DNA from: Arthrobacter sp. MYb214
GTDB lineage: Bacteria; Actinomycetota; Actinomycetes; Actinomycetales; Micrococcaceae
Length of the DNA stretch: 64,000 nucleotides
Assembly: GCF_002979865.1 (NCBI RefSeq)
Contig: NZ_PCPZ01000003.1
Location: forward strand, 372,001 to 436,000
Direction of reading: 5' to 3'
Positions 13,379 through 31,147 of the stretch are shown one piece after another (the first letter of the stretch is position 1; each line of letters opens with the position of its first letter). Made by a program: the position numbers and the translations under genes. Below the pieces are notes generated by a model. The model was not told where the DNA came from, made no database searches, and saw only the letters and a list, made by a program, of their open reading frames with translations.

Positions 13379-14005
13379 ATGGTCGGTTGGGACGTCTCGC
13401 GGCATCCGGAATGGGACATGATGTTCACCGCTTGCCTCACTGCGCGCGAAATCGCTGACCGATGCAAACAGAACATCGCGACCGGGCATCTACACATGAA
13501 AAACCGGGAAAAATATGACCCCGACTTCTATACCAAACACGTCGAAGCACTCGAAGCTCGGGGACCGCATCGCGTCAACACGAAATGGCGGAGGCGCGTT
13601 AAGGAAGCTCAAGATTTCTATACTTCTCAAGGACGCCTTCCGCTTCGCACTGGGGATTTTTCAGAGCATTCGTTGGCTAATTGGATCGCTGAGCAACGCC
13701 TCCTCTACGAACGAAATGAACTGCCACAAGCAAAATTAGTCCTGCTTGAGCCACTCACTGGCTGGAACGTCAATCCACGGACTCGAGAAAGCGAGCTGCG
13801 GTGGAGGAACAAGCTCGAGTCGTTCATCGACTTCGTGGCTACCGAACATCGCATGCCCAGATACAGGACATACGCCACACCAGAAGAGCATGCGCTGGGC
13901 GTGTGGTTGCATAATCAGCATCAACGACGCACTGAGAACCGGCTTGAGCTGTGGAAGCTTGAAGCACTCAACGAAGAGATACCCGAGTGGCGTAGCAGAG
14001 CATGA
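13379..14005 (+). CDS. Helicase-associated (HA) repeat protein
   Basis: A 208-residue protein with two tandem helicase-associated repeats, about residues 70-131 and 139-205. Each reads W(R)..l..f(y/i)....gr.P ... e.sLa.WI..QR ... l.L..L.gW. These three-helix modules usually occur at the C terminus of superfamily II helicases; here no helicase motifs precede them, so this is a stand-alone or truncated gene. Codon use is A+T-richer than the flanking chromosome. Possibly nucleic-acid binding; role in the island unknown. Confidence 0.6.
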   Translation: MVGWDVSRHPEWDMMFTACLTAREIADRCKQNIATGHLHMKNREKYDPDFYTKHVEALEARGPHRVNTKWRRRVKEAQDFYTSQGRLPLRTGDFSEHSLANWIAEQRLLYERNELPQAKLVLLEPLTGWNVNPRTRESELRWRNKLESFIDFVATEHRMPRYRTYATPEEHALGVWLHNQHQRRTENRLELWKLEALNEEIPEWRSRA

Positions 14006-14080
14006 ATCGAAGTCAGCGCATCGCGCCCCAAGCAACTTTGCAAAATAGCGTCCACAGTCCGGAAGATACAAAAAGAATAA

Positions 14081-14842
14081 TCACGATTCCGAGCGACACA
14101 TTTCCGATAACCAGGCGGACCATTGCCCTCCCCGCCCTTTTTGACCAGTCGCTTCTATTTGGCTAGGCACAATACGACCCAAAAGTTCAGTAATAATTCC
14201 CAGTATCAAAGCAGTGTTGGAAAGTGGATTTGCCTCACCGCTACCAGTGCTCTCATGCAGGGGTCTTCCATCCATCATGTAGCCAACGTGAGTAATGGGG
14301 TCTCACAATATCTATTGCCTGAGCTCGTCAGAACACGCCTCAAAATCTGCTTCGAGCACCCCGTGGTACTTGATCATGGTGTGCCTTTCGGTTTTCACAT
14401 CCTGCACTCGACGCTACGGACGGAGAACGTAACTGACCGGTTTGAAGTCCGCCTCAAAGGTCGGTTCCAACTCCAACGCCAACTTTGCCTGAATCTCCCG
14501 CTCCTGGACAGTGGGGATTCCGAAGCGCCGAAGTTTTGGGTTTCCCGGTTTGGGAATCAAACGTTCCTTCACCGGCGATGGGACAAAGGCCTGAGACTTC
14601 AAAAGCTCCTTGTCTTCCTCCATAAATTCCACGCTTTCGACACCATCACCAGTCATGACCGGAATGCGCCGTTCAGCATCGGCAATCCTGGCATCCTTGT
14701 TGCGCTTCACCTGGCCACACGAACTGGTAAGGAATACCTTGTCATGGACGAGGTTGCACACATCGTCAAGAAATGAGGCTGGGCGCGTACTAATATCGGT
14801 CACCGCATGGCGGAAACGTGGGGGTGGATGATTCGGGGTCAC
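14081..14842 (-). pseudogene. Decayed group II intron reverse transcriptase/maturase
   Basis: Minus-strand frames match the N-terminal half of group II intron-encoded proteins in order. They show DVCNLVHDKVFLT, then FVPSPVKERLIPKPGNPKLR and FGIPTVQEREIQAKLALEL with EPTFEADFKPVSY (normally SYGFRP). After a frameshift comes YHGVLEADFEACSDEL (normally VLDADIEACFDEI) and a blurred GTPQGG-LSP region. Stops and frame changes interrupt it, the YADD region is not seen and no maturase or intron RNA domain is recognised. Clearly a dead fragment. Confidence 0.75.
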
Positions 14843-14914
14843 AGCGATGTTTGCTGCAGCCCCTGCCGGTGCGCATGTTTCGTTCCGCCTCGCGCTTCAG
14901 CCCGTTATATTGTT

Positions 14915-14947
14915 GACAGCCCCTAAAAGAGGATCATAGGGACTGTC
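14915..14947. repeat. Inverted repeat near the 3' end of the IS110 relic
   Basis: GACAGCCCCTA and TAGGGACTGTC pair over 11 positions with one mismatch around an 11-base loop. It lies about 110 bases beyond the dead transposase's C terminus and may belong to the right non-coding end of that element. Confidence 0.4.
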
Positions 14948-15053
14948 GGCCGACCAATCTCGGCATGGTGTCTTGCCCCTGTCTAACCAATGATCCGGGG
15001 GTGTTGCCACCGAGATTGGGATGGCAGTAGGGTGATTGACTCTTCTATGTCCG

Positions 15054-16142
15054 TCAAGCCGCAACCGGAACCTCTTCAATCATTTTTGAAGCACTGAAGA
15101 TTCTGAAGATCCGACGGATGAGATAGCGTTTGATGCATCGACGGATCTCCTGATCAGTCTTCCCCTCAGCCTGACGCTTCTCAACATAAACTCGAGTCTC
15201 ATCGTCATGGGCCATGCGTGTGACCGCGGCAATATGCAGGGCAGCATTTAATGACCTATCACCACCACGATTAAGCCGGTACCGGGTTGTGTTCCCGGAC
15301 GACGCAGGAATCGGATTCACGCCAGCCAGGCAGGCAAACGCCGCTTCATTGCGCACTCGCCCATCATGGGACCACTCGACGAAGCACTTCGCAACTGTGA
15401 TTGCTTTGAAGCCGACCTCATCCAATTAGGGTGCTGCTACGCTGACCTGCACCAGCTCGTCCAGTTGATGCTCTTTGGCAGCCAGCTGCTGATCCAAGTC
15501 CAGGACATGTTTGGCCAGTCGTACCGCTTCCGACCGTGCAATCCTCAGCGACAGTTCTTCTTCCCGGTCCCGCCACCGGCTGATTTCAGCAATCTGGCTT
15601 CCGATCAGTTTCTTTCGGGCATCAATCCCTAGGCCATTGCTGCGAATCGGGGCGTACAAGGCGTTCACGGACCTGGTACGGTCTTTCGCCATCGAGCTGC
15701 GTGCCGTGACAAGGATGCGCAATCCTTGGCGGATCCCCTCATTCAGCCGGGGATGGCGCAATTTGTCCACCGGAAGCGGCAGAGACGCCATTGCCATGCG
15801 ATGCGCATCTAACACATCAGTTTTTCCCACACCACTGTTCTGTTTCTTGATCATGCGTGGTGCCTCGGATACGGGGAACCCATGGGCTGCAACTGTGCCG
15901 GCAAGGATCGCTCCATAGGTGGCGGCACCTTCAATGATCCAGAGGGTGTCTGCGTTGCCTTCGGTGCGTCGGGCGACCCAGCTAATGGCCCGGTTGATCC
16001 CACTGCTGGTCACTGGAAACTACTGGGTATCGAGTAGAGCGCCATTGCTGGAATCAGTGATGGCGTAGACATGATTACGTGCCTGGGTGTCGACACCCAC
16101 GACAAATGGGTGGCAATGAGCGACGATAGGTTGTGCGGTCAC
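15054..16142 (-). pseudogene. IS110-family transposase with two in-frame stops
   Basis: Reading from a GTG at 16142 with AGGAAAGG before it, the frame runs 362 codons. It holds the N-terminal DEDD RuvC-like part (VVGVDTQARNHVYAI, later GKTDVLDAHRMA) and the C-terminal Tnp20 part (NEAAFACLAGVNPIPASSG, NRGGDRSLNAALHIAA, GKTDQEIRRCIKRY). The frame is intact apart from a TAG at 16020-16022 and a TAA at 15426-15428, so it cannot make full-length transposase. Its upstream end is cut by the IS481-type element 61 bases away, where an IS110 left end with guide (bridge) RNA would be expected. Confidence 0.85.
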
Positions 16143-16203
16143 CGTACTTTCCTTTCCTGGAATTCAAGGTCGGCCGTGAACGGCCGGTACCAGTCCGGGT
16201 AAG

Positions 16204-16276
16204 TGTCCTGTCTCCGCACTTCGTGGACACACGAACTCATGACTTCGTGGACACCATGTCTCAACAGTTCGTGGAC
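16204..16276 (+). repeat. Left end of IS481-type element with three transposase-site repeats
   Basis: Three copies of a ~12-base block, CACTTCGTGGAC, GACTTCGTGGAC and CAGTTCGTGGAC, are spaced about 24-25 bases apart. They are likely transposase-binding sites. The mirrored set is at 17806-17878. Confidence 0.7.
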
Positions 16277-16342
16277 AAAACCACACCGGTTTCTGGCACT
16301 GTCGAGAACACGAAAAGTGCCCTTCCTCCACGCGTACGATCC

Positions 16343-17758
16343 ATGATCATCAACTTCGACCCCACACAACCAGATGCCCTGAGCATCAGCGAATTCTGCA
16401 ACACTCAGAAAATCTCCCGAAGTATTTTCTATCGACTTCGACACCGGGCAACCAGCGAATCAGCTGCGGCTCTCCACCCGCACTCCAGAGCACCGAGAGA
16501 GCCAGCCAGGAAATACGGCCCAGCAGTGATCAACGAGCTGGTGAAGATCCGCCAGAAACTCAAAAAGGATGGTTGGGACTACGGTCCCAAAACCATTCAT
16601 TATGAAGCAACGATTAACGAAGACACTTTCCCAGGCGGGAAGATTCCGCCTGTTGCTACGATAGGTCGCTTGCTGGCCGGCGTCGGCCACGTGGACGGTA
16701 ACCCTCGCAAGCGACGGAAATCGTCCTATGTTCCCTTCGCAAGGTCAACGGCCATGGCCCTGTGGCAACTTGATGCTTTTGAATACCGTCCCGCCAAAAA
16801 TCAGCTCATCACCGTGTGCCAGCTCATCGATGATGCCAGCAGATTCGATGTTGGCTCCCGAGCGTTCCAACGCCACGAAAACAGCCAGGACGCTCAAGAA
16901 GTACTCGTGCGCGCCATCGCTGAGTACGGTGCACCACAAGAGGTGCTCAGTGATAATTCCAAAGCGTTCAACCAGTTACGTAGCGGGACATTCGGTTCAG
17001 TAGAAATCTTTCTCGCATCCAAAGGAACCATGCCGATCACTGGGCTTCCTGGAAGGCCTACTACTCAGGGGAAGAACGAACGTTCACACCGTACGTTGCA
17101 ACGTTTCTTGACGGCGAACAAGCCACAGGATCTGGCTGATGTGCAGAGGCTATTGAAACGCTACCGAGAACACTACAACAAACGCAGACCGCATCAATCC
17201 TTGAACCAAGCGACCCCACAGGCTGCCTGGGAACTGCTGGAACATACACCGGCCACTGAACCGATTCACTTATCAGTGTTGGAAGCGAAAGCTGCCGAGT
17301 ATTTGAGCAAACGTCGATTAGCTCAGGCTACGGCCAGTAGGTTGGATGTGGTGGTGTCGAAGTCGGGTGAAATCATGAAAAGCACTCATGATGGATCGGA
17401 TCCAGTGCCCCTGTTGGAATCAAATCAGATGCTTGTGGAAGTCACTAAGGAAAACCGCAGGACGTTCTATCAAGGGTTCCACATTTCGTTGCCCACATCG
17501 TTCGCTCGCCGTCAGTTCATCAGGACGATTACGGACACAGAATTTTTGTTGTCTGGCCCTGAGACTAGTGAAGTTGTCCTGTCGTTCCCGTTACCGATGG
17601 TGGCTCTAAAAGTTGAGGGGAAGTTCGTTTCGTCGTATTCAATCAGAGGAATTCAGATGACTATAGCGACTCGTCAATGGGTGAAGAAGGCAGAGCAGTA
17701 CCGTGCCGTCATCCAGGCTCGTGAGCAGCAATCGCCGACGTTCTTTGAACATAGCTAG
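16343..17758 (+). CDS. IS481-family transposase (DDE integrase core)
   Basis: A 471-residue protein counted from the ATG at 16343; upstream in-frame codons would read through the left-end repeats. An N-terminal HTH (ALSISEFCNTQKISRSIFYRL) precedes the rve integrase core. The catalytic triad is visible as D144 (LWQLDAFEY), D204 (EVLSDNSKAF) and E246 (GKNERSHRTL), followed by HYNKRRPHQSLNQATP typical of IS3/IS481 enzymes. A ~150-residue C-terminal extension with beta-rich character is longer than most IS481 members. The frame is intact, so the element may be active. Confidence 0.88.
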   Translation: MIINFDPTQPDALSISEFCNTQKISRSIFYRLRHRATSESAAALHPHSRAPREPARKYGPAVINELVKIRQKLKKDGWDYGPKTIHYEATINEDTFPGGKIPPVATIGRLLAGVGHVDGNPRKRRKSSYVPFARSTAMALWQLDAFEYRPAKNQLITVCQLIDDASRFDVGSRAFQRHENSQDAQEVLVRAIAEYGAPQEVLSDNSKAFNQLRSGTFGSVEIFLASKGTMPITGLPGRPTTQGKNERSHRTLQRFLTANKPQDLADVQRLLKRYREHYNKRRPHQSLNQATPQAAWELLEHTPATEPIHLSVLEAKAAEYLSKRRLAQATASRLDVVVSKSGEIMKSTHDGSDPVPLLESNQMLVEVTKENRRTFYQGFHISLPTSFARRQFIRTITDTEFLLSGPETSEVVLSFPLPMVALKVEGKFVSSYSIRGIQMTIATRQWVKKAEQYRAVIQAREQQSPTFFEHS

Positions 17759-19031: not shown

Positions 19032-19967
19032 TTGGATATATCTCAATCTAAGACGACAAGGCTATTACTCTCCCAATCCCTGGATTCGACTGGACAAACT
19101 GCTTCTTGGATTGGTCCTTTGCTTGCGCTAGGGACTCGCGCTTCCAGATATTCTTCGAAGCTTGAAAAACGTCAGCTTGTAGTCGCAGTCTCTGTACCGA
19201 TACGCGATTTTGCGGCAGTTCTGATTGGCTGCGGTTGGGTGCTTGCTAGCAAGCCCAAGCAGCTCGACACCCCACTAGAAGTGCTCAGAAAACTGCAAGC
19301 AGGAGACATTATTCGTGTACTGAACTCCTCAGAAATCATTGTGGGCCGTTTCTCGTCCCTCAGCGAAGATCAGATCCCCCCTCGTGCAAATTTTGCCGGT
19401 TCGGAGTGGAACATCGAGCGGATTAAAGCCGTGTTACCCATAGACGACCCTGGCTACACGGCGAGATCACTTCACCCCGAACTTTCAGCGATTCACCGGT
19501 TTGCCGGACTAGCCAAGAATTGGGAATCCCACTTAGCAGGCCCGACTGCCGACCTCGGTATTGTTGGCACCTTGACTTGGATCAACGAGGAAATGAAATA
19601 CTACCTTGGCTTAGAACATGATCCTTACGATCTTGGCTCCCTAGATTCCGTCCTACTTCCAAAATATTTGCATGTTGCAACTTGGTACACCCATCTATAC
19701 CACTCCACTGGGTTCGATGAGCGATTAGATGCCGCGAACAACCTGAGATCAATCATTCTTGACGGGAATGGAGCCATTAGTCACTTAAACGAATTAGAGA
19801 GTTCCGTCATCTTCTGTGTAATTGATCGCTCGTTAAGTGATGACACTGGCGCCGAAGTAATTAAGCAATTGCGAAACATGAGGGGTACACCATTGTCATT
19901 AGCAGATGATCTCCGGTGGAATCCACCGCGTGGTATTGAAGCTCTCGCATTTACGGTTCCGCAATGA
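19032..19967 (+). CDS. Uncharacterised first gene of the DISARM-like operon
   Basis: A 311-residue soluble protein starting at TTG with AAGGA eight bases upstream. It opens a five-gene operon: its stop overlaps the next start (ATGA). The sequence has an ordered N-terminal region (WIGPLLALGTRASRYSSKLE, then QLVVAVSVPIRDFAAVLIGC) and a C-terminal alpha/beta-looking part (SSVIFCVIDRSLSDDTGAEV). No catalytic motif or family is recognised. Together with the next gene (820 residues in total) it would be about the size of a DrmE protein, so it may be the N-terminal half of a split DrmE, or a separate sensor. Codon use is A+T-rich like the rest of the operon. Confidence 0.7.
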   Translation: MDISQSKTTRLLLSQSLDSTGQTASWIGPLLALGTRASRYSSKLEKRQLVVAVSVPIRDFAAVLIGCGWVLASKPKQLDTPLEVLRKLQAGDIIRVLNSSEIIVGRFSSLSEDQIPPRANFAGSEWNIERIKAVLPIDDPGYTARSLHPELSAIHRFAGLAKNWESHLAGPTADLGIVGTLTWINEEMKYYLGLEHDPYDLGSLDSVLLPKYLHVATWYTHLYHSTGFDERLDAANNLRSIILDGNGAISHLNELESSVIFCVIDRSLSDDTGAEVIKQLRNMRGTPLSLADDLRWNPPRGIEALAFTVPQ

Positions 19968-21493
19968 ATCGTATATCTAACGTCAACGCCCGATATTCCG
20001 CACAGGATTCACTAATTCGCTATGGAGTTGAAATGCTACTAGTCAGTGATCCACTGGGCGAAACGCTAAACCGAACAGTTTACAATCTTTCACGACTTAT
20101 TCGTGGTCAAAACTTAAGCTCGCTAGAGGATCTGGAATCCGCTGCTAAGGCTTTGCTTTGGCGGCAGATTACGCGACCAGGACCGCCTAAATACAGCCAA
20201 GGGCTTGGCGAAATATGCGAGACAATCCAACGGCAAACGGCACGATTCAGTCATATGATCGAAGATCAAACCTTACTGATGGACTTAGGGGAAACTGCCG
20301 AACAAATATTGCTTGCCGATCCTCCATTAGGCAAGACCTTACTGGAATCTTGCCAGGAAGTCGGCGCTGATAAAGCAGTTGTACTGGCAGCAAACCGCCC
20401 GGCGGCTCAAGATCTGCGTACATGGCTAGAACCTTTAGGAATCACGGTACTTACGCGAAGTGAGTGGGCAAGGCTCCGGGATCCTTTTGAAGTAACCTAC
20501 GTCATCGGACCCCCAAAGTTCTTTGGACCTTCTTTAGTCACCGCACCTGTTACTAACGAGCTTAGCTACATTTTACCGTCGTGGTTCAGAGATCGCAGTA
20601 TTCCTCTTTCTTCAATTTCTGACTACTCCGAAGGAAAAATCGAAGTAAGACAACGCCTTTTTACAGTTAATTCTGGACTAGAAGTCGCGGCTAAATCAGT
20701 TGAGAATACGGCTGAGGAAACACCGGAACTCGAATCGTACCTCCCACAAGCGGTCTGGCCATCATTCAGTGACTCAACAAAGGAACCTACCGAAGACGAG
20801 GCTCGCGCCAGAAAGATCTACCTGAGCGGCGATTACTCCATCTGGCTCGATGACGGCGATCGCATCCGAACAGTAGATGTTGGTAACCCGCCAGGCGAAC
20901 GAGTTTCTTATTCGAGTGTCAAGTCCGTGAAGTGTGGAACAGTCCTGCTTCTTCGACAAGGCGTTTCTGAATATGGTGCCCTCTACGATGCTTCAAAAAG
21001 GGCATTGGGCAAGCGTGCTACTGAAATTGCATTAACACAATCAAGCTGGAAACAAATCTTGAAAAAACGATTAAATGAGTATAGTAGAATATACGTCACC
21101 AACCAGCTCAAGAGAGCCGGAGTATCAACACCAAATCGCGCACTCGCTTGGACTGAAGAAAATCTAATCTGCCCACAGAAAAAGAACGACTTCCTATCGC
21201 TTTTACGTTGGCTGGGGATCCCCGAAGAGCCCACATTCAGCAACGCAATGGCGCTTAGGCTGCAAACTTATAGAACTCGAAATACCGTCTTGAAGGATTT
21301 GGAAGATTCCGTTTCAAAAGCAAACATGAGTCTTCTTGAAAAAAACGGATTCATTCAAATAGAATACACAACAGAAGGCTTTAGGGGGATTCTCGCAACA
21401 AGAGTTCTAGCAATTTCGCCAAAATACGAAATTGTTCCTAAGTCCAGCCTTAGAGTTCCAGCTATTGACAGGAGCGCCAAGTGGCTCGAATGA
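19964..21493 (+). CDS. DrmE-like DISARM accessory protein
   Basis: A 509-residue protein joined to its neighbours by an ATGA overlap at the start and a 13-base overlap at the end. The C-terminal ~180 residues show an IYLSGDYSIWLDDGDRI beta-module, GTVLLLRQGVSEYGALYD, then helices with SSWKQILKKRL and GVSTPNRALAWTEENLICPQ. This domain order resembles the end of DrmE of class 2 DISARM. The N-terminal part lacks recognisable helicase or nuclease motifs. Assignment rests on this domain pattern plus operon context; a distinct uncharacterised family is possible. Confidence 0.5.
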   Translation: MNRISNVNARYSAQDSLIRYGVEMLLVSDPLGETLNRTVYNLSRLIRGQNLSSLEDLESAAKALLWRQITRPGPPKYSQGLGEICETIQRQTARFSHMIEDQTLLMDLGETAEQILLADPPLGKTLLESCQEVGADKAVVLAANRPAAQDLRTWLEPLGITVLTRSEWARLRDPFEVTYVIGPPKFFGPSLVTAPVTNELSYILPSWFRDRSIPLSSISDYSEGKIEVRQRLFTVNSGLEVAAKSVENTAEETPELESYLPQAVWPSFSDSTKEPTEDEARARKIYLSGDYSIWLDDGDRIRTVDVGNPPGERVSYSSVKSVKCGTVLLLRQGVSEYGALYDASKRALGKRATEIALTQSSWKQILKKRLNEYSRIYVTNQLKRAGVSTPNRALAWTEENLICPQKKNDFLSLLRWLGIPEEPTFSNAMALRLQTYRTRNTVLKDLEDSVSKANMSLLEKNGFIQIEYTTEGFRGILATRVLAISPKYEIVPKSSLRVPAIDRSAKWLE

Positions 21494-23193
21494 TACCGTC
21501 ATTTTGTCCAAGTGATGTCCCTCCGGGCGAAAAAGCTGTGTATTCGGCTTTTCAAGGGGAAGACAATACACGGGACTGGACAATTCTTCATTCGCTTGGA
21601 ATAGCCAACCATATTCGTCAAGTGCAAGGTGAATCTGATTTTGTCTTTATTGTTCCGGGTTCAGGAGTACTAGTTGTAGAAGTTAAGTCTCACCTAACCG
21701 TTGGCCGGGATGAAGACGGTACGTGGACGCTCGGTAATGACAAACCTACTTCGCGTGGCCCTTTTCAACAAGCTAACGAAGCTATGCACAGCATACTGAA
21801 GTTCTTGGATAAGCAGAAATTGCATCTGGAAGACGTTCCTGTTCTATTTGCAGTATGGTTTACCGGAGTACGTGCACGTGCACTTCTCCCGAAGAATCCA
21901 GAATGGCATGATTGGCAAGTCCTCGACATAACCGACCTGAATAATCCACGTAAAGCAATCTTGAATGTTCTGGCAGCAGGTTCCAGCCATCTCGGCTCTA
22001 AGGTGAGAAGGTTTAGTACGGGCCTCTATGGCCCTGATTCTGCGAAAGCCAAGAGCATCGCGAGCGTGCTGCGCCCCAAGTTCGAATTGGCGACAGTCGG
22101 CTCGGATAGACGTAGAGACCGGGAAGCAAATCTAAATAGCTTCGTAGAAGAACAGTATCTGGCTCTTGATTCAGCCAGTGATAATTTGTCGATGCTTTTC
22201 TACGGTCCAGCCGGTTCTGGAAAAACATTCTTGGCACAAGAATCAGCTCGTCGCGAGGCGTCTCTTGACAGGCAAGGTCGGCTACTTTGCTACAACCGTC
22301 TTCTCGGAACGCATCTGGCTCAACAGATGAAGGGCGTTAAAGGGCTTACGACAGGAACTCTTCATCAGGAGCTGCTACGTATATCAGGTCTTGATCGCGT
22401 TCCGGAAAATGCAACTCCTTCATTTTGGAATGAGGAACTCCCGGAGCGTGCGTTAGAGAATATTTTGAATACAGGAGACAAATATGTCGGTGATTTCCTT
22501 GTAGTGGACGAAATTCAAGACATAGCCAAAGAACCACTACTCGATGTACTGGACGCGATGGTGGATGGGGGACTCCAAAATGGACGTCTTCTCTTCTACG
22601 GAGATTTTGAACGCCAAGCCATCTATACAAACAAAATGGGACGGGGTCTACTCTTCCAACGTTCCTCACAGATGTCGCAGTTCAAACTTGTTATGAATTG
22701 TCGTAATGTCCCCAGGATTGGTTACCAGACCAATATGCTCACAAAGCTCCAGCCGGGATACTCGCTGTTCCGCCGAGAAGATGACGGCATAGATCCGGAG
22801 ATCCGAAAATATAAGCGAGCTGAAGACCAAACCGCATTTCTGTCCTCGGCTATCCGCAAGTTAAAAGCTGAAGGATACTCGCTGGATGAGATCGTGGTCC
22901 TTAGCCCACTGAGGGACATGTCAGCGGCCGCCCAAACTACCGATCCTTGGTTACGCCAGATTCTTTCATTCTTGGGTGATTCTTTGGAGACTACGCCAGG
23001 TAAGGTTCGCTATTCAACGATCCATGCGTTTAAGGGGTTGGAAGCACCGGTGGTTATCTTGACGGATCTTGATCACCGACATATGAGGCCACACGTAGAA
23101 GCACTCCTATACGTTGCCCTTACGCGGGCTACAGATCGCCTAATTGCATTTGCTGACGAGACGACACTCAAAAATCTTATAGGAAAAGGCTAA
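21481..23193 (+). CDS. NERD-domain nuclease-related superfamily 1 helicase
   Basis: A 570-residue two-part protein. Residues ~25-110 form a NERD domain whose PD-(D/E)xK-like triad is visible: D53 (GESDFVF) and E67-x-K69 (LVVEVKS). Residues ~220-570 form a UvrD/DUF2075-like helicase: Walker A GPAGSGKT (242-249), Walker B FLVVDEIQDI (D343, E344), motif V STIHAFKGLEAPVVILTDL and motif VI VALTRATDRLI. The GTG at 21481 is chosen because AGGAG sits six bases upstream; an ATG at 21490 has no such site. Predicted ATP-driven DNA translocase with a nuclease module. Its place directly before drmA suggests it acts in the same complex and may replace the missing DrmC nuclease. Confidence 0.82.
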   Translation: MARMIPSFCPSDVPPGEKAVYSAFQGEDNTRDWTILHSLGIANHIRQVQGESDFVFIVPGSGVLVVEVKSHLTVGRDEDGTWTLGNDKPTSRGPFQQANEAMHSILKFLDKQKLHLEDVPVLFAVWFTGVRARALLPKNPEWHDWQVLDITDLNNPRKAILNVLAAGSSHLGSKVRRFSTGLYGPDSAKAKSIASVLRPKFELATVGSDRRRDREANLNSFVEEQYLALDSASDNLSMLFYGPAGSGKTFLAQESARREASLDRQGRLLCYNRLLGTHLAQQMKGVKGLTTGTLHQELLRISGLDRVPENATPSFWNEELPERALENILNTGDKYVGDFLVVDEIQDIAKEPLLDVLDAMVDGGLQNGRLLFYGDFERQAIYTNKMGRGLLFQRSSQMSQFKLVMNCRNVPRIGYQTNMLTKLQPGYSLFRREDDGIDPEIRKYKRAEDQTAFLSSAIRKLKAEGYSLDEIVVLSPLRDMSAAAQTTDPWLRQILSFLGDSLETTPGKVRYSTIHAFKGLEAPVVILTDLDHRHMRPHVEALLYVALTRATDRLIAFADETTLKNLIGKG

Positions 23194-26100
23194 TGTCAAC
23201 TACTGAAGCTCGAGAAACCATTGAGTCAGAGATTCGCCGGGAACTATTCGGACCCCACGAAGGTGAACAATCAGTTGGCAGACCAATAGACACGTCTAGC
23301 GGCTCTGTCTCCTTTGCATCTATTGAAGACAGCCGTGGAAGATTCTATGACAGCGTCACGAACCAAGAAATCATAAGCTCCGGCACGCCTCTTACCAGAT
23401 ACGGTATCGGCGTTCTTCATGGTGGTGGGAATATCTCCACCGAATATACTCAAGAAACACTAGACCTGACCCAAGTTGCTGGAATTTCCCACAACGATGA
23501 AGATGCTCCTGGGTTTCCAGTGGAAGTGCTTTCCTCAAGCAATTTAGCGGAATCCGACTCGGACGATTTCGATCTAACTAGCGCGAATAGTTTTAAACCA
23601 TCATCAATGGCGATTTCGTTTCAGTGTCGGGTATCGGATGAAGGCCTACTCAAGCTACGAGTAGATTGCGCCTACTACGATCGCATCTCAGCAAAGATCG
23701 CCGGAAACTCAAAATCTATCGATTGGTGGGTAAGGCATCCGCTTTCGCTGGCTGCCTCAATTCCGGGGAATCTATTGATCGATCGCATACACCGACTCAC
23801 CCCTGTTTCAACCACGTCAGAACAATTAAATCCGAGGATTTCACCAATTGTTCAGGTGTTCAGTCGACCTGTTCCTAAATCGTCAGATGCCAATCTACGA
23901 TTGGTCACGCTTGCTTTAGTCAATCAGACACCTGGCACTGGGCCTGAAAACACGTTCTTCCAAGTGTCCTTCTCCCTCGCCCCAGAGAACAAACTTGAGA
24001 TCACCCCGTACCTTGATACCCAGTTGGTCGATCTTGATGAAGAAGAACAGTCCTTCGAGCTGCTGTATCGCAACAAACGAACCTACGCTATCGGGCACGG
24101 TTGTGCAGCTGAGTGGACTACCACTGCTAATGGAAGCTCTGTCAGTTCGCTAAGGGCTGCCGCTTTACCAGCCCACGAAGTAGTCAGTTTGACCCCAAAC
24201 GTCTACTTGACCGATTCGCGAGGAGACTACCTTTACGATGCAGTTGGTCGTCGTCAGGCGCTAACTATAAGTATGAAGCAACTTGCTACAGGGAGCATGG
24301 AGGCTTCGACGCAAGTCGAGCTGCTTCTAGACTCATACGCTACTTGGATCGCCGCTAGGAAGGCCGAAATTATCGGCCTTCCTTCGCAATATCATGCTGC
24401 TGCGAAAAATCATATGGATAAAGCTGAGTCAGCCCTTGAACGTATGCGTTCTGGGTGGACACTCGTTAACTCTAGTGAGATTGCGCAGCAAGCATTCCGT
24501 TGGACCAACGAAGCCATGCTTCATCAGCAAATTCGCTCAAGTTTTCCGCTGCGAAAGGTAGTCCGGCAGAAGGATGGGACGATACGACCTGATGGTCGTC
24601 ATCCATCCCTTGAGGTTCCGACTGGACGAGGTTCCTGGCGCCCGTTCCAGATTGCATTCATCCTGGCAAGCCTACCGGAGCTGATCGAGCCTTCTCACCA
24701 TGTGAGAGAAACTGTTGATCTCATCTTCTTTCCAACTGGGGGAGGTAAAACAGAAGCGTATCTTGGAGCCAGTGCCATTAGCCTATTAGCACGGCGCTTA
24801 CGGGATCCAAACGACTCCGGTACAGATACCATAATGCGGTACACGTTAAGACTTCTAACAGCACAGCAATTTTTGCGAGCTGCTTCGCTGATATGCGTGC
24901 TCGAGGACATTAGATCTCAGAACGAACGGGCATTGGGATCTGCTCCGTTCGGAATTGGAATTTGGCTTGGCGGGTCTTCCACGCCGAATACTTGGAAATC
25001 TGCAGTCGAAAGCTACTCTCAGCTAAGCAAGAATGCTGCTGCGAAAAACCCCTTTCTACTACTGCGCTGCCCATGGTGTGGCACCGAAATGGGGACGAAG
25101 CCTAAGGGACGCAATCAGCAGGATGTAATTGGCTACGAGTTGGTCGGCAAGAAAGTAAGACTACGCTGCATCGATCCAAGATGCCTTTACTCTCGACGGT
25201 CTGGACTCCCCGTTCATGTAGTTGATGAAGACATCTACCAGGCCCAACCTTCTCTGGTTATCGGCACGGTCGACAAGTTCGCTATGACTGCGTGGAAGCC
25301 AGAAGCCAGAGCTTTGTTCGGAATCGGCGATGATGGCACTCGGTTGTTGTCCCCTCCAAACCTAATAATACAAGACGAGCTACACCTAATTTCAGGCCCG
25401 CTTGGATCGATGGTCGGGTTGTATGAAACCATCATTGGCGAGTTATGCACCGACCGGCGGTCCGGTAAAAATATAGTTCCAAAAATCATTGCAGCTACCG
25501 CGACGATTCGCCGATACGAGGAGCAGGTTGTGAGTCTCTACGGCCGGACTAAAACGTCTCTCTTCCCTCCTCATGGATTAGAAGAAGGCCGTTCATTCTT
25601 TGCTGAGCCAGCGAGAGACGACAAGGGTCGGTTAGAACCCGGACGACGCTACCTCGGCATAATGAGTTCTTCGTTAGGGTCAATGCAAACTGTACAGACG
25701 AGGGTAACTGCCGCCACCTTACAAGGTGCGGCTAAGCTACCGGAAGAAAAGAGGGATGGATATTGGACCAATCTCAATTTTCTAAACTCACTACGCGAGC
25801 TGGGAAATACTGTGTCACTCCTCGAATCAGATGTTCCCGATTATCTTAGTGGACTCCGACGAAGGGACGGTATAACCCCGCGGTGGCCCAAAAGGGTATT
25901 GGAATTGACTTCGCGTAGGCGTTCAGATGAAATTCCTAAAGCAATTCAGGAGCTTCAGGTTAATTATGCGCCCGGCAGTGATGCCCAGGATGTTATAGAT
26001 ATATGCCTAGCTTCAAATATTATTGAAGTCGGTGTGGACATCGACCGTTTGGGCCTAATGACGATTGTTGGACAGCCGAAGACAACTGCCCAGTATATTC

Positions 26101-26684
26101 AAGTTAGCGGCCGGGTCGGACGTCGTGCTGATATTAGCCCGGGTCTTGTGATTACCCTTTATGGCGCCTCGAAACCACGAGATCGCAGCCACTATGAACG
26201 TTTCACTCCATATCATCAACAACTGTATGCGCAAGTTGAACCGACTTCCGTTACCCCTTTTGCAACGCCGGTTTTACGGCGCGCCCTCCACGCCGTGGCT
26301 GTCGCCTTCATCAGACAGACAGTTGACGCTGGAATCGCCCCTTACCCCTTCCCTGCCAAGGAATACAACGATGCTATGGAATTATTGCATGCTAGAGCAC
26401 TACTAGTGGACAAGAAAGAAGCTCCTGCCGTTAAGCAGATAGCAACCGAACGGGCTAAAGAATGGCGTAATTGGCTTCGAACCGAATGGAACGCCAACCC
26501 CGCCCCTTGGGGAGATCCGCTAGAAGGACTAATGCAGTTCGCAGGGACTCTGCCTGATGAAGATCGCAAGTTCCCAATTTGGGATATACCCACAAGTATG
26601 CGAAATGTCGACGCAGAATGCCGACTAACTATTACGACGGCATACGCACTCGAAGATGGCGAAACGACGGAGAGCGAATCATGA
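23193..26684 (+). CDS. drmA: DISARM helicase DrmA
   Basis: A 1163-residue superfamily II helicase of the DrmA family. Motif I FFPTGGGKTEAYLG lies at about 514-527, motif II is DELH at ~728 (IIQDELHLISGPLG) and the later motifs are NIIEVGVDIDRLGL (~943) and QVSGRVGRR (~971). Between motifs I and II is a probable zinc site (LLRCPWCGTEMG ... RCIDPRCLYS). The first ~500 residues are the long N-terminal domain typical of DrmA. DrmA with DrmB binds DNA and blocks phage DNA in DISARM systems. It overlaps the preceding gene by one base and drmB by four. Confidence 0.9.
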   Translation: MSTTEARETIESEIRRELFGPHEGEQSVGRPIDTSSGSVSFASIEDSRGRFYDSVTNQEIISSGTPLTRYGIGVLHGGGNISTEYTQETLDLTQVAGISHNDEDAPGFPVEVLSSSNLAESDSDDFDLTSANSFKPSSMAISFQCRVSDEGLLKLRVDCAYYDRISAKIAGNSKSIDWWVRHPLSLAASIPGNLLIDRIHRLTPVSTTSEQLNPRISPIVQVFSRPVPKSSDANLRLVTLALVNQTPGTGPENTFFQVSFSLAPENKLEITPYLDTQLVDLDEEEQSFELLYRNKRTYAIGHGCAAEWTTTANGSSVSSLRAAALPAHEVVSLTPNVYLTDSRGDYLYDAVGRRQALTISMKQLATGSMEASTQVELLLDSYATWIAARKAEIIGLPSQYHAAAKNHMDKAESALERMRSGWTLVNSSEIAQQAFRWTNEAMLHQQIRSSFPLRKVVRQKDGTIRPDGRHPSLEVPTGRGSWRPFQIAFILASLPELIEPSHHVRETVDLIFFPTGGGKTEAYLGASAISLLARRLRDPNDSGTDTIMRYTLRLLTAQQFLRAASLICVLEDIRSQNERALGSAPFGIGIWLGGSSTPNTWKSAVESYSQLSKNAAAKNPFLLLRCPWCGTEMGTKPKGRNQQDVIGYELVGKKVRLRCIDPRCLYSRRSGLPVHVVDEDIYQAQPSLVIGTVDKFAMTAWKPEARALFGIGDDGTRLLSPPNLIIQDELHLISGPLGSMVGLYETIIGELCTDRRSGKNIVPKIIAATATIRRYEEQVVSLYGRTKTSLFPPHGLEEGRSFFAEPARDDKGRLEPGRRYLGIMSSSLGSMQTVQTRVTAATLQGAAKLPEEKRDGYWTNLNFLNSLRELGNTVSLLESDVPDYLSGLRRRDGITPRWPKRVLELTSRRRSDEIPKAIQELQVNYAPGSDAQDVIDICLASNIIEVGVDIDRLGLMTIVGQPKTTAQYIQVSGRVGRRADISPGLVITLYGASKPRDRSHYERFTPYHQQLYAQVEPTSVTPFATPVLRRALHAVAVAFIRQTVDAGIAPYPFPAKEYNDAMELLHARALLVDKKEAPAVKQIATERAKEWRNWLRTEWNANPAPWGDPLEGLMQFAGTLPDEDRKFPIWDIPTSMRNVDAECRLTITTAYALEDGETTESES

Positions 26685-28588
26685 GCAGCGGTTCAATACG
26701 TAGAGCGCAATTAGTCGCGCCTTTCGGTGTCGGAGCGTTAAGCGTGCTCGTTGACGGCACATCAGTTATTACGGCGGGGCTAGACCACTGGTATGAAAGC
26801 AGCGGTTCGACTCCTGTCGATATAAATGAGTACGAAGCGCACGATTGGAGACTTGAAGCCAGGCTTAAAGTTAACTCGTTTCGGCTTCCCGCGGATTACC
26901 GGCGTTCAAAACCGAGTGAGACTGACCGCAATGTAAAACTCAGCGTTCCCGTACTTCGATTTCCACGCTGGTGTTACTGCATGTACTGCAAGAGGCTTGA
27001 ACTCTCCACTCTGACCATGCAGCATCCCACCAAATGCACGGACGCTAAGCACGCGGATTGGAAACATAAGCCTCGCATGGCGCAGGTACCTTTCGTTGCA
27101 GTTTGCACTAACGGACATTTGGACGACTTTCCATTTAACGAATGGGTTCACAGAACAGACAACCCATCGTGTTTCGGACCGTTGCGTCTCAAATCTATTG
27201 GTGGAGCAGGACTAGATGGGCAACGAGTCGTGTGTGTTTCATGCGAATCTCACCGATCGTTGGGTGGAATAACGCAAACCCGTCGCATCAACGGTGAAGA
27301 ACACAGCATATTAAGCGATAGTTTGTCACCAAAGACTGAAAATCCTTTCCTATGTTCGGGCGCTCGACCTTGGCTCGGGCAGCTTACGGGCAACTGCGAC
27401 AGGCCGCTGCGAGGAGCTTTAAGGGCAGCTGGCAATGTCTATTTCCCAAAAGTTGAATCTTCCATCTATCTGCCACGTAATGTAGGAAAAGTAACTGCAG
27501 AGATGCACGCGCTAATGGACCTGCCATCGGTAAGCGTCATCATGTCGACTCTCCATTCAGTTTTTGGTTCTGAACTAGGCGTAGACGTTCTGCGCAATAG
27601 TTTGCTGAATAAAGTTCCACCAGAGCTATTCCATGCTGCATCTGATGAGGAACTAATGGACGGATATCTCGAACGTTTCGGAGATTCAGGCAAAACGACG
27701 GAAGGCGAAGAGGAATCCGGCAATGAATCACTAAGCGAAACAAACATATGGCGGTATCCCGAGTATCTTCAGATTCGAGAAACACCTAAAGATGTTTTTT
27801 TGACTATTAGCGACCCCGGGATTCATTCAGACCTAGACGATCTCTTGGACCGAGTCAGGTCAGTAGAAGTGCTTCGAGAAACTCGTGCGCTACGTGGTTT
27901 TACGCGAGTTCATGATGACCCACTGACGTTATCTGAAGGCAAAAAGCAACTTCGGAGGCAGCCGCTAGCGCCACAACAAGATTGGCTGCCCGCTTATGTT
28001 GTCAAAGGCGAGGGGATCTACTTTGAGCTCAATGAACAACGACTATCTGCTTGGGAATCCACTCCCGGAGCTCGCGCCAGAGCCCAAAAGATTTCTGATC
28101 GGTACAAAATAGCTGCTGCACAACGTGGGCTTGAAGAACGAGAATTGACACCGAGATTTATATTGATGCATACGCTCGGTCATCTCTTGATCAATGAGTT
28201 GGTTTACACATGCGGGTATAGTTCCGCTTCACTACGGGAGCGGTTATATGTGTCCGAATCTCCTAATAGCCGAATGGCTGGGATACTGATTTACACGGCG
28301 GCGGGTGACTCCGAAGGTACATTGGGGGGCTTAGTTAGAATGGCCCAGACTGATAATCTTAGATCAACCTTCTACTCGGCAATTTCCAAAGCAAAATGGT
28401 GCTCTTCCGACCCTGTTTGCATGGAAACCGGTGCCAAAGGTCAAGGTCCAGACTCATGCAACTTGGCCGCTTGCCACAGTTGTTCACTGGTGCCTGAGAC
28501 TAGTTGTGAAGAATTCAACAGGTTCCTCGACCGAGGATTGGTAATTGGCACCTTAGACGATCCTGCTCTTGGGTATTTTCACCCTTAA
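26681..28588 (+). CDS. drmB: DISARM protein DrmB (DUF1998)
   Basis: A 635-residue DUF1998 protein that forms the core DISARM complex with DrmA. The start SSGSIRRAQLVAPFGVGAL is the conserved N-terminal region. A cysteine cluster RWCYCMYCKRLEL (~98) and VAVCTNGHLDDFPFNEW follow. The C-terminal DUF1998 has HTLGHLLINELVYTCGYSSA, GTLGGLVRMAQ and a cysteine-rich end (WCSSDPVC, CNLAACHSCSLVPETSCEEF), probably metal-binding. The ATGA overlap with drmA fixes the start at 26681. It ends the plus-strand operon; no phospholipase-D gene (drmC) follows. Confidence 0.9.
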   Translation: MSSGSIRRAQLVAPFGVGALSVLVDGTSVITAGLDHWYESSGSTPVDINEYEAHDWRLEARLKVNSFRLPADYRRSKPSETDRNVKLSVPVLRFPRWCYCMYCKRLELSTLTMQHPTKCTDAKHADWKHKPRMAQVPFVAVCTNGHLDDFPFNEWVHRTDNPSCFGPLRLKSIGGAGLDGQRVVCVSCESHRSLGGITQTRRINGEEHSILSDSLSPKTENPFLCSGARPWLGQLTGNCDRPLRGALRAAGNVYFPKVESSIYLPRNVGKVTAEMHALMDLPSVSVIMSTLHSVFGSELGVDVLRNSLLNKVPPELFHAASDEELMDGYLERFGDSGKTTEGEEESGNESLSETNIWRYPEYLQIRETPKDVFLTISDPGIHSDLDDLLDRVRSVEVLRETRALRGFTRVHDDPLTLSEGKKQLRRQPLAPQQDWLPAYVVKGEGIYFELNEQRLSAWESTPGARARAQKISDRYKIAAAQRGLEERELTPRFILMHTLGHLLINELVYTCGYSSASLRERLYVSESPNSRMAGILIYTAAGDSEGTLGGLVRMAQTDNLRSTFYSAISKAKWCSSDPVCMETGAKGQGPDSCNLAACHSCSLVPETSCEEFNRFLDRGLVIGTLDDPALGYFHP

Positions 28589-28706: not shown

Positions 28707-29978
28707 TTAACTTACTTTGTGAATTGAATTCTCAAAAAATGCGTGCCTAGAATGTTGCTCTTGGCCTACGAACGCCTTGAATCTGCCTATTTTATAGGAC
28801 CACTGAGTTCCAGTCTTGACCCTTTCCATTTCAAAGTCTTTCTCCAAAATAACTAAATGATTTTGAAGCTCACGTATTGTTATGTCAATACCAATGTTAT
28901 CAACGATCTGTCTGGCAGTCTTGAATGAGTCACTGTTTTTGAGGAATTTGTAAACAGGATCCGTAATACGAGAATAATCTTGTTCTTTTTTTATCTCGCT
29001 AGTTCCATTTAAGGCGTCTGCAATAGCGAGGCCTAACGCCCGCGCTACAGGCGGAGGAAACGCATTTCCGATCTGTCGGTATGTGCTCGTCTTTTTGCCA
29101 GCGAAGTTCCATCTAAATTCTCTGCCACCCCATCCTTGGAGTTTTGCCACCATGCCCAAAGTCAGCTTGGGGCCGACTTCGAATTTATCGCCAGGCTGCG
29201 GCGCTGAATCAGCAATCCCCTTTCCGTTGACTCCAAGTTCGGCCCATGCCTGCTTCGCGCGGGTTGGTCCAAGATCCGCCCCACCGTGTTTTTTCGAGCC
29301 GCCCACAATAGTGGGACCGATACCATTAGCGTTCTGCGCCCATTCAGATGCGCCTTCCCACCCATTGGCAGCCATAAGGTTTTTCAGCGCTTTACCAACA
29401 GTTACGTGTGTACTCTTAGGTTCTGGCCAATGGAAGAATTGAAATTCTTTTTGCTCCATCGCGATAAGAACGAATCGCGGACGGAGTTGCGCAACACCAT
29501 AGTCGGAAGAATTAATTAGGCGCCACTCTGCGCGATACCCCAATTCTTCAAACCTGTCTAAAACATGCTGACGGTACCCCGCGAAACGAGGCATGCTCAG
29601 CCCTCGGACGTTTTCCAACATTACAGCTCTTGGTTGAATTACTCCCACTTGTTCAACAGCCCAGGCAAATAAATCGCGCTCGTCACCCGACCCTAACTGC
29701 TTCCCTGCAATGCTGAATGGCGGGCAAGGAACACCACCTGCAAACAGATCTATACGGTATGGAAGGTTACTCGGAGAATAGTCAGCGGGATCCCATACAG
29801 ACCGATTCGCCACATCTCCGACAGCTATGTTCCAGTTCGGACGGTTGAGTCGAAGAGTCGATGCGGCGGTTTCGTCAAGCTCAATAGCGAGCTCGTGGTG
29901 AAACCCCGAACGCTCGAGCCCCAGGGACTGACCGCCGGCGCCTGCACATATCTCGATTACGCGCAATTTGCTATTCAT
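28707..29978 (-). CDS. NaeI-like DNA (cytosine-5) methyltransferase
   Basis: A 423-residue m5C methyltransferase with motifs in order: SAM loop EICAGAGGQSLGLE, catalytic GGVPCPPFS (Cys85), ENV (122-124), QLRPR (164-168) and RQIGNAFPPPVA. The target-recognition stretch TIVGGSKKHGGADLGPTRAK and the segment GLSMPRFAGYR match what I know of M.NaeI, so the predicted target is GCCGGC. A ~95-residue C-terminal extension with winged-helix character is unusual. GAGGAG precedes the ATG at good distance. It protects host DNA from the adjacent endonuclease and may also serve as the DISARM methylase (DrmMII role). Confidence 0.88.
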   Translation of the reverse strand: MNSKLRVIEICAGAGGQSLGLERSGFHHELAIELDETAASTLRLNRPNWNIAVGDVANRSVWDPADYSPSNLPYRIDLFAGGVPCPPFSIAGKQLGSGDERDLFAWAVEQVGVIQPRAVMLENVRGLSMPRFAGYRQHVLDRFEELGYRAEWRLINSSDYGVAQLRPRFVLIAMEQKEFQFFHWPEPKSTHVTVGKALKNLMAANGWEGASEWAQNANGIGPTIVGGSKKHGGADLGPTRAKQAWAELGVNGKGIADSAPQPGDKFEVGPKLTLGMVAKLQGWGGREFRWNFAGKKTSTYRQIGNAFPPPVARALGLAIADALNGTSEIKKEQDYSRITDPVYKFLKNSDSFKTARQIVDNIGIDITIRELQNHLVILEKDFEMERVKTGTQWSYKIGRFKAFVGQEQHSRHAFFENSIHKVS

Positions 29979-30214
29979 TAGAACGCTCCTCTAGCCTGCA
30001 AACACAACGAATGATTCGTTGAAAGGATGGCATCCTCTCCATATTACCGGTTGCAGATACCATCATTTTTCTATTTTCGCCTCCGAATACGACAGTATGA
30101 TGCTCTGGCTTGCGGAGAGGTTCCATTTAGCGATTTATGGAAACTTCGAAACGTGCCGAATTCGTCACGATTCTATTGCAAGCAGCTCTGCGCCAATCAT
30201 GCTGAAATGGCGAA

Positions 30215-31147
30215 TTACTGGTTTCGAATAGTGGGTGCTGGGGCTGCGCTTCCATGGTATCCGGCATCGGCCACCCATCGCCCACCGTCGAGTTCAACGC
30301 TATTGGCCATTGCAATATCTGCCCTGACTACTCTGGTACTTACCAATTCCCCCTCGTGCGGTATTGCGCATCCAAGCTCCAAAGCAATATTGACTTGTCG
30401 CTTGTAGTCCCCCGACAATATTATGATTCCTTCCGACTGCAAGGTACTCCTTGCGCCGCCATTGGCTCGCACACGTTTCATGTAGTCGCTTTGCTGGGCT
30501 ACCGTCGCAACAACATTTCGTGAGATTCTCCGGTTCGTCGCGATCCGGAAAAGCTGATTGATACGCGCTTGCCCACTTCGCGGGGCAAATATTTTTGCCA
30601 CTTCATTCTCTGAAATATGGAGCAGAACGTTTGGTGGCATCGGTGCATCCTTTCGGATCCACCGGATGCGACGCTTACCCAACGCATTTAGCGTGCCCTT
30701 CTGATCGCGGTTCATGCCCACATTGCGGTTCTCCGCCGATGCACGGACTAAACCCATACTCCACTTTGATTTCTCATCACTCGCAACAGAACCAAGTATC
30801 AAGTGATCGATGCTTTCCGGTGGAAGCATCCAACTCCCCGTAGCGGAATACTTGCAATCGACTTCGTGTCCAGCGATCTGATAATCCATCAACAGCCCAT
30901 CGGAAAAATCGAATTCACGTTGAAGATTAATTTCGATAAGTGTGCCGAAATGCGTTTTTTCGGTTTTGTAGAGCTGATCCCACCGATAGCGTCCAGTGCG
31001 TTGTCCGTCATACAATTGGTCGAAGGTTTCTCGGAAGACCTTGGCCATGCGACTCCCCGATGGGTCCTGTTCGACTATCCACCCAATAACTTCTTCAAGT
31101 GCTGAATCATTGTGTGAGAGGTCATGTCCAAGTGGGAGCTCCTGCAT
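30215..31147 (-). CDS. NaeI-like type IIE restriction endonuclease
   Basis: A 310-residue endonuclease. NaeI's catalytic residues E70, D86, D95 and K97 appear here at a constant offset of two: E72 (GTLIEINLQ), D88 (MDYQ), D97 and K99 (VDCKY). The NaeI ligase-like motif with leucine in place of lysine (NaeI L43) is L45-YDGQRTGR. The C-terminal CAP/topoisomerase-like DNA-binding half is present (VVATVAQQSDYMKRVRANGG, EGIIILSGDY). It should need two GCCGGC sites, one as effector. The gene is transcribed toward the methyltransferase, 236 bases before it. The RBS (GGAGG) is unusually close to the ATG, which may keep expression low. Confidence 0.88.
   Translation of the reverse strand: MQELPLGHDLSHNDSALEEVIGWIVEQDPSGSRMAKVFRETFDQLYDGQRTGRYRWDQLYKTEKTHFGTLIEINLQREFDFSDGLLMDYQIAGHEVDCKYSATGSWMLPPESIDHLILGSVASDEKSKWSMGLVRASAENRNVGMNRDQKGTLNALGKRRIRWIRKDAPMPPNVLLHISENEVAKIFAPRSGQARINQLFRIATNRRISRNVVATVAQQSDYMKRVRANGGARSTLQSEGIIILSGDYKRQVNIALELGCAIPHEGELVSTRVVRADIAMANSVELDGGRWVADAGYHGSAAPAPTIRNQ

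Follow-up and report, generated by a model that had tools for sequence, protein, structure and literature searches.

The defense system DISARM was reportedly named by Ofir et al. in 2018. Its class 2 is composed of drmE, drmMII, drmA, drmB and drmC, and its class 1 of drmD, drmMI, drmA, drmB and drmC. For class 1, one study (PMC9142583) reports that DrmAB prefers single-stranded DNA and 5' overhangs and that methylation damps its ATPase, and it describes DrmC as non-essential, as not co-purifying with DrmAB and as often missing from DISARM operons. The published system nearest to the one considered here is TALON, which pairs a NERD nuclease with a YprA helicase of ARMADA-like type (PMC12458937). 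Here we analyzed a stretch of 64,000 nucleotides from Arthrobacter sp. MYb214 (contig NZ_PCPZ01000003.1, positions 372,001 to 436,000), in the following called the window, with coordinates counted from its first letter. It holds an operon of five overlapping co-directional genes, namely gene A, gene B, a NERD-domain helicase, drmA and drmB, which is followed by a convergent C5-cytosine methyltransferase and a NaeI-type endonuclease. A sequence-only reading of the window had proposed that the NERD helicase stands in place of the DISARM nuclease DrmC and may be the nuclease/translocase of a DISARM variant. Our analysis confirmed the observation and supports the interpretation with corrections: the operon belongs to a widespread DISARM variant with an inferred cutting step, in which the NERD helicase, judged from its sequence, probably supplies the DNA-cutting, DNA-tracking enzyme used by this branch instead of the usual nuclease. 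In the literature searched, with supplementary tables, most subscription papers and other preprints outside the search, we found no account of a drmAB operon containing a NERD helicase.

The open reading frame (ORF) of the NERD helicase (21481-23193, + strand) starts with GTG, has an AGGAG at 21470-21474 and encodes 570 amino acids (aa). It overlaps gene B by 13 bases and, as had been noted before, lies directly before drmA with an overlap of one base, which is common to its TAA stop (23191-23193) and the ATG of drmA (23193-23195). Pfam, alignment and structure model divide the protein into a NERD nuclease domain at residues ~16-121 (Pfam NERD at 16-121, 40.5 bits vs a cut-off of 22.1) and a UvrD-like superfamily 1 (SF1) helicase at residues ~219-568. 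The helicase joined to the NERD domain is complete, as the earlier reading had it: UvrD_C_2, UvrD_C, Viral_helicase1, AAA_22 and AAA_19 are all above their Pfam cut-offs, Walker A and B, a UvrD-type C-terminal domain and the fold are present, and residues 219-568 match UvrD (2is6_B) with Z 30.9 and a root mean square deviation (rmsd) of 3.0 over 340 aligned residues, with PcrA, Rep and AddA also among the nearest structures. The likeness to UvrD, PcrA and AddA suggests, by analogy, that the NERD helicase travels 3' to 5'.

For the nuclease part, the proposed triad D53, E67 and K69 was found as described, with E17, E51 and Q97 as further members of this conserved set. These six residues and the Walker residues are invariant in an alignment of 35 NERD helicases, and across 66 homologues we observed zero substitutions at E17, E51, D53, E67, K69, Q97, K248, D343 and E344, the only exceptions being gaps in two loci (L123 and L131). 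The AlphaFold model has a mean predicted local distance difference test score (pLDDT) of 87.3, with residues 40-50 below 50, and shows the order helix 15-25, strands 34-37, 54-58 and 62-69, helix 94-111 and strand 121-127, as expected of PD-(D/E)xK. E17 is part of the first helix, D53 immediately precedes strand 54-58, the strand after it carries E67 and K69, and the second helix carries Q97; the triad residues stand on neighboring elements in PD-(D/E)xK order, judged by element order rather than by distances. A search with the whole model was dominated by matches to the helicase part, and the predicted NERD fold of the N-terminal region is supported by profile, motif and strand order. After the UvrD-type helicases, the best whole-model match was human SLFN11/SLFN14 over residues 1-560; the SLFN11 match (Z 25.9, 438 aligned) has a high rmsd of 8.2, and its domain placement may differ from that of the window protein. 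As the match runs across the model, the Schlafen linker may be a NERD-like domain ahead of the same helicase type.

A scan of 84,980 species genomes used two motifs taken from the NERD protein, and its matches were confirmed by tblastn to the window protein. The patterns were derived from five proteins, all with drmA adjoining, and both patterns and confirmation use the NERD protein alone; with two short motifs the scan samples close relatives. It yielded 63 loci with 61 distinct NERD proteins, among which L095, L110 and L126 repeat loci whose proteins seeded the profiles; these three as well as L129 and L117 were omitted as duplicates from the distance, tree and methyltransferase counts below. 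Of the 62 loci whose downstream sequence extends for at least 1 kb, 60 have drmA immediately after the NERD gene on the same strand, L128 and L144 being the exceptions, and drmB was present in 58 of 60 loci with room. On the other side, gene B precedes the NERD helicase in 58 and gene A in 55 of the 59 loci with room. The most frequent junctions are overlaps, of four bases with drmA (33/63) and of 13 bases with gene B (36/63). Loci with both NERD helicase and drmA carry NCBI labels of 11 phyla; 36 of the 63 loci are from Actinomycetota and many others are metagenome bins. L129 was left out of the phylum count for having the same NERD protein as L103, and the identity of this protein in two bins labelled as different phyla makes a binning error in one of them likely. 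The distances between NERD helicases agree with those between DrmA proteins (rho 0.94 over 61 loci, 0 of 500 permutations), as would be expected if the two are inherited as a unit. A single scan of viral contigs gave 114 pattern matches, and there was no relative among them. Taken together, the NERD helicase is a conserved, widespread partner of DrmA in a DISARM branch consisting of a DrmE-like pair, NERD helicase, DrmA and DrmB. Broken operon genes were seen in four loci (drmA and B in L085, drmA in L106, the NERD gene in L138 and B in L081), and they may reflect either decay or sequencing error.

DrmC was searched for at several levels. The seven proteins of the locus (A, B, NERD helicase, DrmA, DrmB, methyltransferase and NaeI) contain no phospholipase D (PLD) HxK motif, in line with what had been read from the sequence. 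A permissive DrmC profile derived from eight class 1 proteins found nothing in the 63 loci at E-values (E) up to 10, and a PLD motif search returned one ORF, located 2.4 kb past drmB in L113, with 25.0 bits to Pfam PLDc_2, just under the cut-off of 27. In the host genome (3.72 Mb, 19 contigs, completeness 100) a search with PLDc_2, the other PLD family PF00614 not being searched genome-wide, found two proteins only, a cardiolipin synthase and a polyphosphate kinase, and no drmC elsewhere. As far as tested, neither a drmC outside the locus nor a model with the triad residues apart, the two outcomes that had been named as refuting the earlier reading, came about. Both were rejected as DrmC, as curated cut-offs assign them to these enzymes; the cardiolipin synthase scores 343.6 bits vs a cut-off of 290 for its own family and 68.5 bits vs a cut-off of 133 for DrmC_I.

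We also started from DrmA instead of the NERD protein. In a census of 396 genomes of one phylum, taken to be Actinomycetota from contigs shared with named records, 29 had a match at E 1e-30 and 30 loci were read: a DrmC-type PLD gene was seen in 14, an adjacent NERD helicase in 7, both in none and neither in 9. This exclusion has P 0.0056 under random pairing, with kinship uncorrected and some loci truncated at contig ends. A FastTree phylogeny of 88 DrmA proteins, from which pieces shorter than 800 aa were omitted, places the NERD-linked loci in one group of 67 rows, 62 of which have the NERD gene (L106 counted), a share that is not a frequency, because most of these rows were found via the NERD protein. 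The loci of class 1 type, with PLD in 10 of 12, and those of class 2 type, with PLD in 4 of 4, fall outside this group. The proposal that the gene stands in place of DrmC is supported by the lack of any locus with both genes (0 of 30), with a correction on position: drmC follows drmB, and in this operon the NERD helicase is not found there. In genome G161 a class 1 DISARM that includes a PLD gene coexists with a NERD-type operon (L050 and L067).

We consider it reasonably probable (roughly 0.6) that the NERD helicase belongs, as a regular subunit, to a DISARM variant consisting of the DrmE-like A/B pair, the NERD-SF1 helicase, DrmA and DrmB, in most cases with a cytosine methyltransferase close by, and that it does the degrading work. 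The data show which genes are present and in which order, that both active sites are conserved, that the genes are inherited jointly and that DrmC is absent; cleavage of DNA by the NERD domain, contact of the NERD helicase with DrmAB and its need in defense are inferred. Following the work on class 1 DrmAB, DrmAB would load on incoming or replicating phage DNA that has single-stranded 5' ends and lacks host methylation, and would unwind it. The NERD helicase would then track along the opened DNA by its UvrD-like motor and cut at the NERD site, filling the degrading role proposed for DrmC in other DISARM classes, while the cytosine methyltransferase would mark self DNA.

Several observations weigh against this reading. 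The scan was limited to close relatives of the window NERD helicase, and the NERD-linked DrmA clade has a support of 90, under 95, with long branches flagged. NERD helicases without DrmA in view exist both in the scan (L128, L144) and on plasmids (L146, L007, L008, L153); among these, L007 and L008 differ at E51 and E17, and L146 and L128 are intact. Conversely, drmAB operons of the same clade without a NERD gene were found in L005 (Nostoc HK-01), L081 (Priestia), L071 (G239) and L065, of which L005, L081 and L071 keep drmAB with A and/or B and show no NERD helicase in view; L064, also without a NERD gene in view, ends at a contig edge. A role as nuclease/translocase is supported by context and intact sites, but the gene is not universal: the same DrmA clade includes loci that lack both the NERD helicase and the PLD nuclease. 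In addition, protection by DrmAB is reported not to need DrmC (PMC9142583), so that a nuclease may not be needed at all.

In another explanation, DrmAB blocks phage DNA or recruits an unlinked host PLD nuclease and the NERD helicase is an accessory motor like class 1 DrmD with a minor nuclease role. Physical blocking and recruitment of other PLD proteins are proposed by Bravo et al. (PMC9142583), and neither DrmD nor DrmMI exceeds 100 bits in any of the 63 loci. However, the two PLDc_2 proteins of the host are poor candidates for a recruited nuclease, and the NERD residues are kept as strictly as the Walker residues, which makes this explanation rather improbable. Somewhat less remote, although still unlikely, is that the NERD helicase acts as a sensor or abortive arm, recognizing DNA ends or replication intermediates and then either turning on host nucleic acid or signaling, modelled on backup NERD effectors elsewhere or on GajB- and RelE-helicase-type proteins. 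The NERD domains of PglW are read as suicidal backup effectors (PMC12839542) and GajB profiles weakly match the helicase part; on the other hand, ARMADA defense is reported to be non-abortive (PMC12458937), and DISARM without the gene would then still need a nuclease, of which none is present in most loci. The names returned by PADLOC point in yet another direction, as the best ones for the NERD helicase are RTasNERD-Hel (PDLC03813, 99.5 bits) and C3a187 (PDLC01087, 63.4 bits), and together with the members away from DrmA they would fit an independent single-gene defense, kin of either, that lies beside drmA by chance. Against it stand the fixed gene order, the overlaps between genes and the parallel divergence across 60 of 62 loci, whose labels span 11 phyla, and we regard it as very improbable.

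The NERD helicase was also observed in other gene orders. In one of them it occupies the drmC slot directly after drmB, and a UvrD-type helicase precedes drmA; this order was seen on Azospirillum (L147) and Rhizobium (L149, L151) plasmids and in genome G319 (L058). Another order, NERD helicase, drmA, drmB and then a second UvrD-like helicase, was seen by Pfam in Deinococcus gobiensis (L006) and in L063 and L066 (L006 15735-18579; L066 4180-7214; L063 12968-14071), where in L006 and L066 the second helicase is followed by a protein of ~570 aa without Pfam match. From their place, the two genes after drmB in L006 and L063-L066 had been considered as McrB/McrC, which was rejected, as Pfam gives a UvrD-like helicase and then no match; identity with the DISARM-like cassette beside McrBC of Bell et al. 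2024 was dropped likewise, the genes not being McrBC. In Leisingera (L145, 1-7740) the NERD helicase lies directly behind a DruE-type helicase (1421 bits) and in Sphingomonas (L152, 1049-7611) directly behind TmtA (1279 bits), so the module partners other large defense helicases too. The NERD residues are intact in all these arrangements (L147, L149, L151, L058, L006, L063, L066, L145 and L152). Tentatively, NERD-SF1 helicases could be a portable nuclease-motor effector of YprA-helicase defenses, and the window operon could be a third DISARM class in which an ATP-powered nuclease-helicase replaces the PLD nuclease. Such an effector would occur in at least three DrmAB gene orders, namely between a DrmE-like pair and drmA, ahead of drmA where another UvrD-like helicase follows drmB, and in the drmC slot with a UvrD-type helicase in front of drmA, and additionally with the DruE-type partner in L145; this too we hold as a possibility somewhat short of even. 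If true, it tells what cuts DNA in DISARM operons without DrmC.

Gene A (19032..19967, +, 311 aa) is the first gene of the operon, with an uncertain TTG start, and its homologues occupy the same place in the loci counted above; it has no Pfam or PADLOC match. Gene B (19964..21493, +, 509 aa) corresponds to a DrmE-like C-terminal half according to its homologues and hhalign. The window protein itself has no Pfam match, and B or fused homologues in L005, L118, L135 and L081 pass the DrmE_C cut-off; the homologues of L112, L116, L132 and L141 match below it, and those of L067, L009 and L071 show no DrmE_C match. A genome search with DrmE_C reached the B gene of G195 at E 0.007, below the cut-off. 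In hhalign comparisons, 55 B sequences aligned with the C-terminus of three class 2-type DrmE proteins at a probability (P) of 95.8% over 204 columns (L070, L073 and L074, of which only L070 passes the DrmE_C cut-off), and at P 99.6% over 476 columns with the ~890-aa proteins that substitute A and B in L132, L135 and L141. One long ORF stands in place of A and B in four loci. For gene A as the DrmE N-terminus, hhalign against class 2-type DrmE detected nothing, and against the N-terminus of the fused ~890-aa proteins it gave a weak collinear match (P 17.5%). On these sequence comparisons A and B are probably a split DrmE-like protein, with the A half as the weak part, linked by position and fused ORFs. 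The model of gene B (pLDDT 87.5) has no Foldseek match at E 0.001 or better; by VIA-align, residues 15-212 match Hef (1wp9_D) moderately (Z 10.7, rmsd 3.3, 183 aligned), and the N-terminal half resembles the second RecA domain of Hef with a helical insert. Walker A is not conserved in A or B. The pair thus possibly has a degenerate helicase body, and from the Hef-like domain and the missing Walker A, DrmE may be a degenerate superfamily 2 (SF2) helicase. PDB sequence matches of B to a chaperonin and MLKL (best E 0.0034) were taken as chance.

Downstream of the NERD helicase, PADLOC calls DrmA and DrmB. The drmA gene (23193..26684, +) encodes a YprA-type SF2 helicase of 1163 aa with 692 bits to PADLOC DrmA and 849.3 bits to NCBIfam NF038325, under the cut-off of 950, which by profile score makes it a relative outside the curated NCBIfam class. 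The ATG of drmB at 26681 overlaps the drmA stop; its product (26681..28588, +, 635 aa) is a DUF1998/MZB protein recognized by PADLOC, Pfam and NCBIfam NF038324 (427.4 bits vs a cut-off of 240). The convergent C5-cytosine methyltransferase (28707..29978, -, Pfam DNA_methylase 190.6 bits) has DruM2 and MTase_II as best PADLOC names, with DrmMII weaker, and next to it lies the NaeI-type restriction endonuclease (30215..31147, -, Pfam NaeI 361.7 bits). A cytosine methyltransferase, from one of several families, occurs within the fetched stretch in 46 of 60 systems and beside the operon on the same strand in 27, and a NaeI-type endonuclease lies close to 10 of the 60 systems left once duplicates are removed, frequently accompanied by a methyltransferase from a single family. 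The window enzyme groups with NaeI-linked methyltransferases. These NaeI neighbors are in the window (28707-31147), L004, L082, L083, L085, L099, L102, L107, L111 and L116. Because the window methyltransferase runs convergent to the operon and is linked to NaeI, the variant may borrow its self-marking from the NaeI type II system; we regard the enzyme as a candidate for self-marking, shared with or belonging to the NaeI system, and the endonuclease as probably a separate type II system associated with the operon. The window has ~47-51% GC content over 17-28 kb compared to 60% and more in the flanks. The flanking genes are 18.5 kb apart here and 6.8, 8.9 and 25.6 kb apart in three genomes of the genus, those with both flanks kept near each other; the stretch is therefore variable and probably acquired. 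On the left side of this island (13379-17758), Pfam found a helicase-associated (HA) domain protein, a piece of an IS110 transposase and an rve integrase-type transposase.

A large DrmA branch without detected DrmC and nearly always with one intact nuclease-helicase provides a defined candidate for the destruction of phage DNA. Annotation is concerned as well, as the NCBI model misses the window DrmA by its cut-off and PADLOC names the NERD helicase after reverse-transcriptase systems. RTasNERD-Hel and C3a187 share its domain order over nearly the full length; PADLOC files the former under DRT (reverse transcriptase systems), and C3a187 is described only as NERD+UvrD. Among ten island proteins scanned with Pfam we found no reverse transcriptase domain. 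UvrD, PcrA and AddA share the helicase part, and UvrD, unlike the window protein, has no NERD domain.

Among multi-gene systems described in PMC12458937 (Bell et al. 2025), TALON likewise sets a NERD PD-(D/E)xK nuclease beside a YprA-family helicase, but it has a single-chain ARMADA-like helicase with TPR-CSD and TBP genes, whereas DrmA and DrmB of the window are separate genes and no Pfam match to TPR-CSD or TBP was found among the ten island proteins. ARMADA type II of the same source is likely a functional parallel, as it combines a YprA helicase with an SF1 helicase whose N-terminal domain is nuclease-like; unlike the window variant, it has a RelE-like domain, a one-chain YprA helicase and BrxHII-like and PglX-like genes. 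With DISARM class 1 the window shares DrmA and DrmB as separate neighboring genes, yet it lacks DrmD, DrmMI and DrmC, in keeping with the DrmD and DrmMI scores of the 63 loci. The comparison with class 2, for which we used loci with both DrmC and DrmE seen (L070, L073, L074), suggests as common features a split DrmA/DrmB, a DrmE_C domain in part of the gene B homologues and a cytosine methyltransferase near most systems. In contrast to class 2, the variant in the window has no DrmC, places the NERD helicase between the DrmE-like pair and DrmA, carries the putative DrmE in two genes in most loci, and its DrmA belongs to another clade of the tree.

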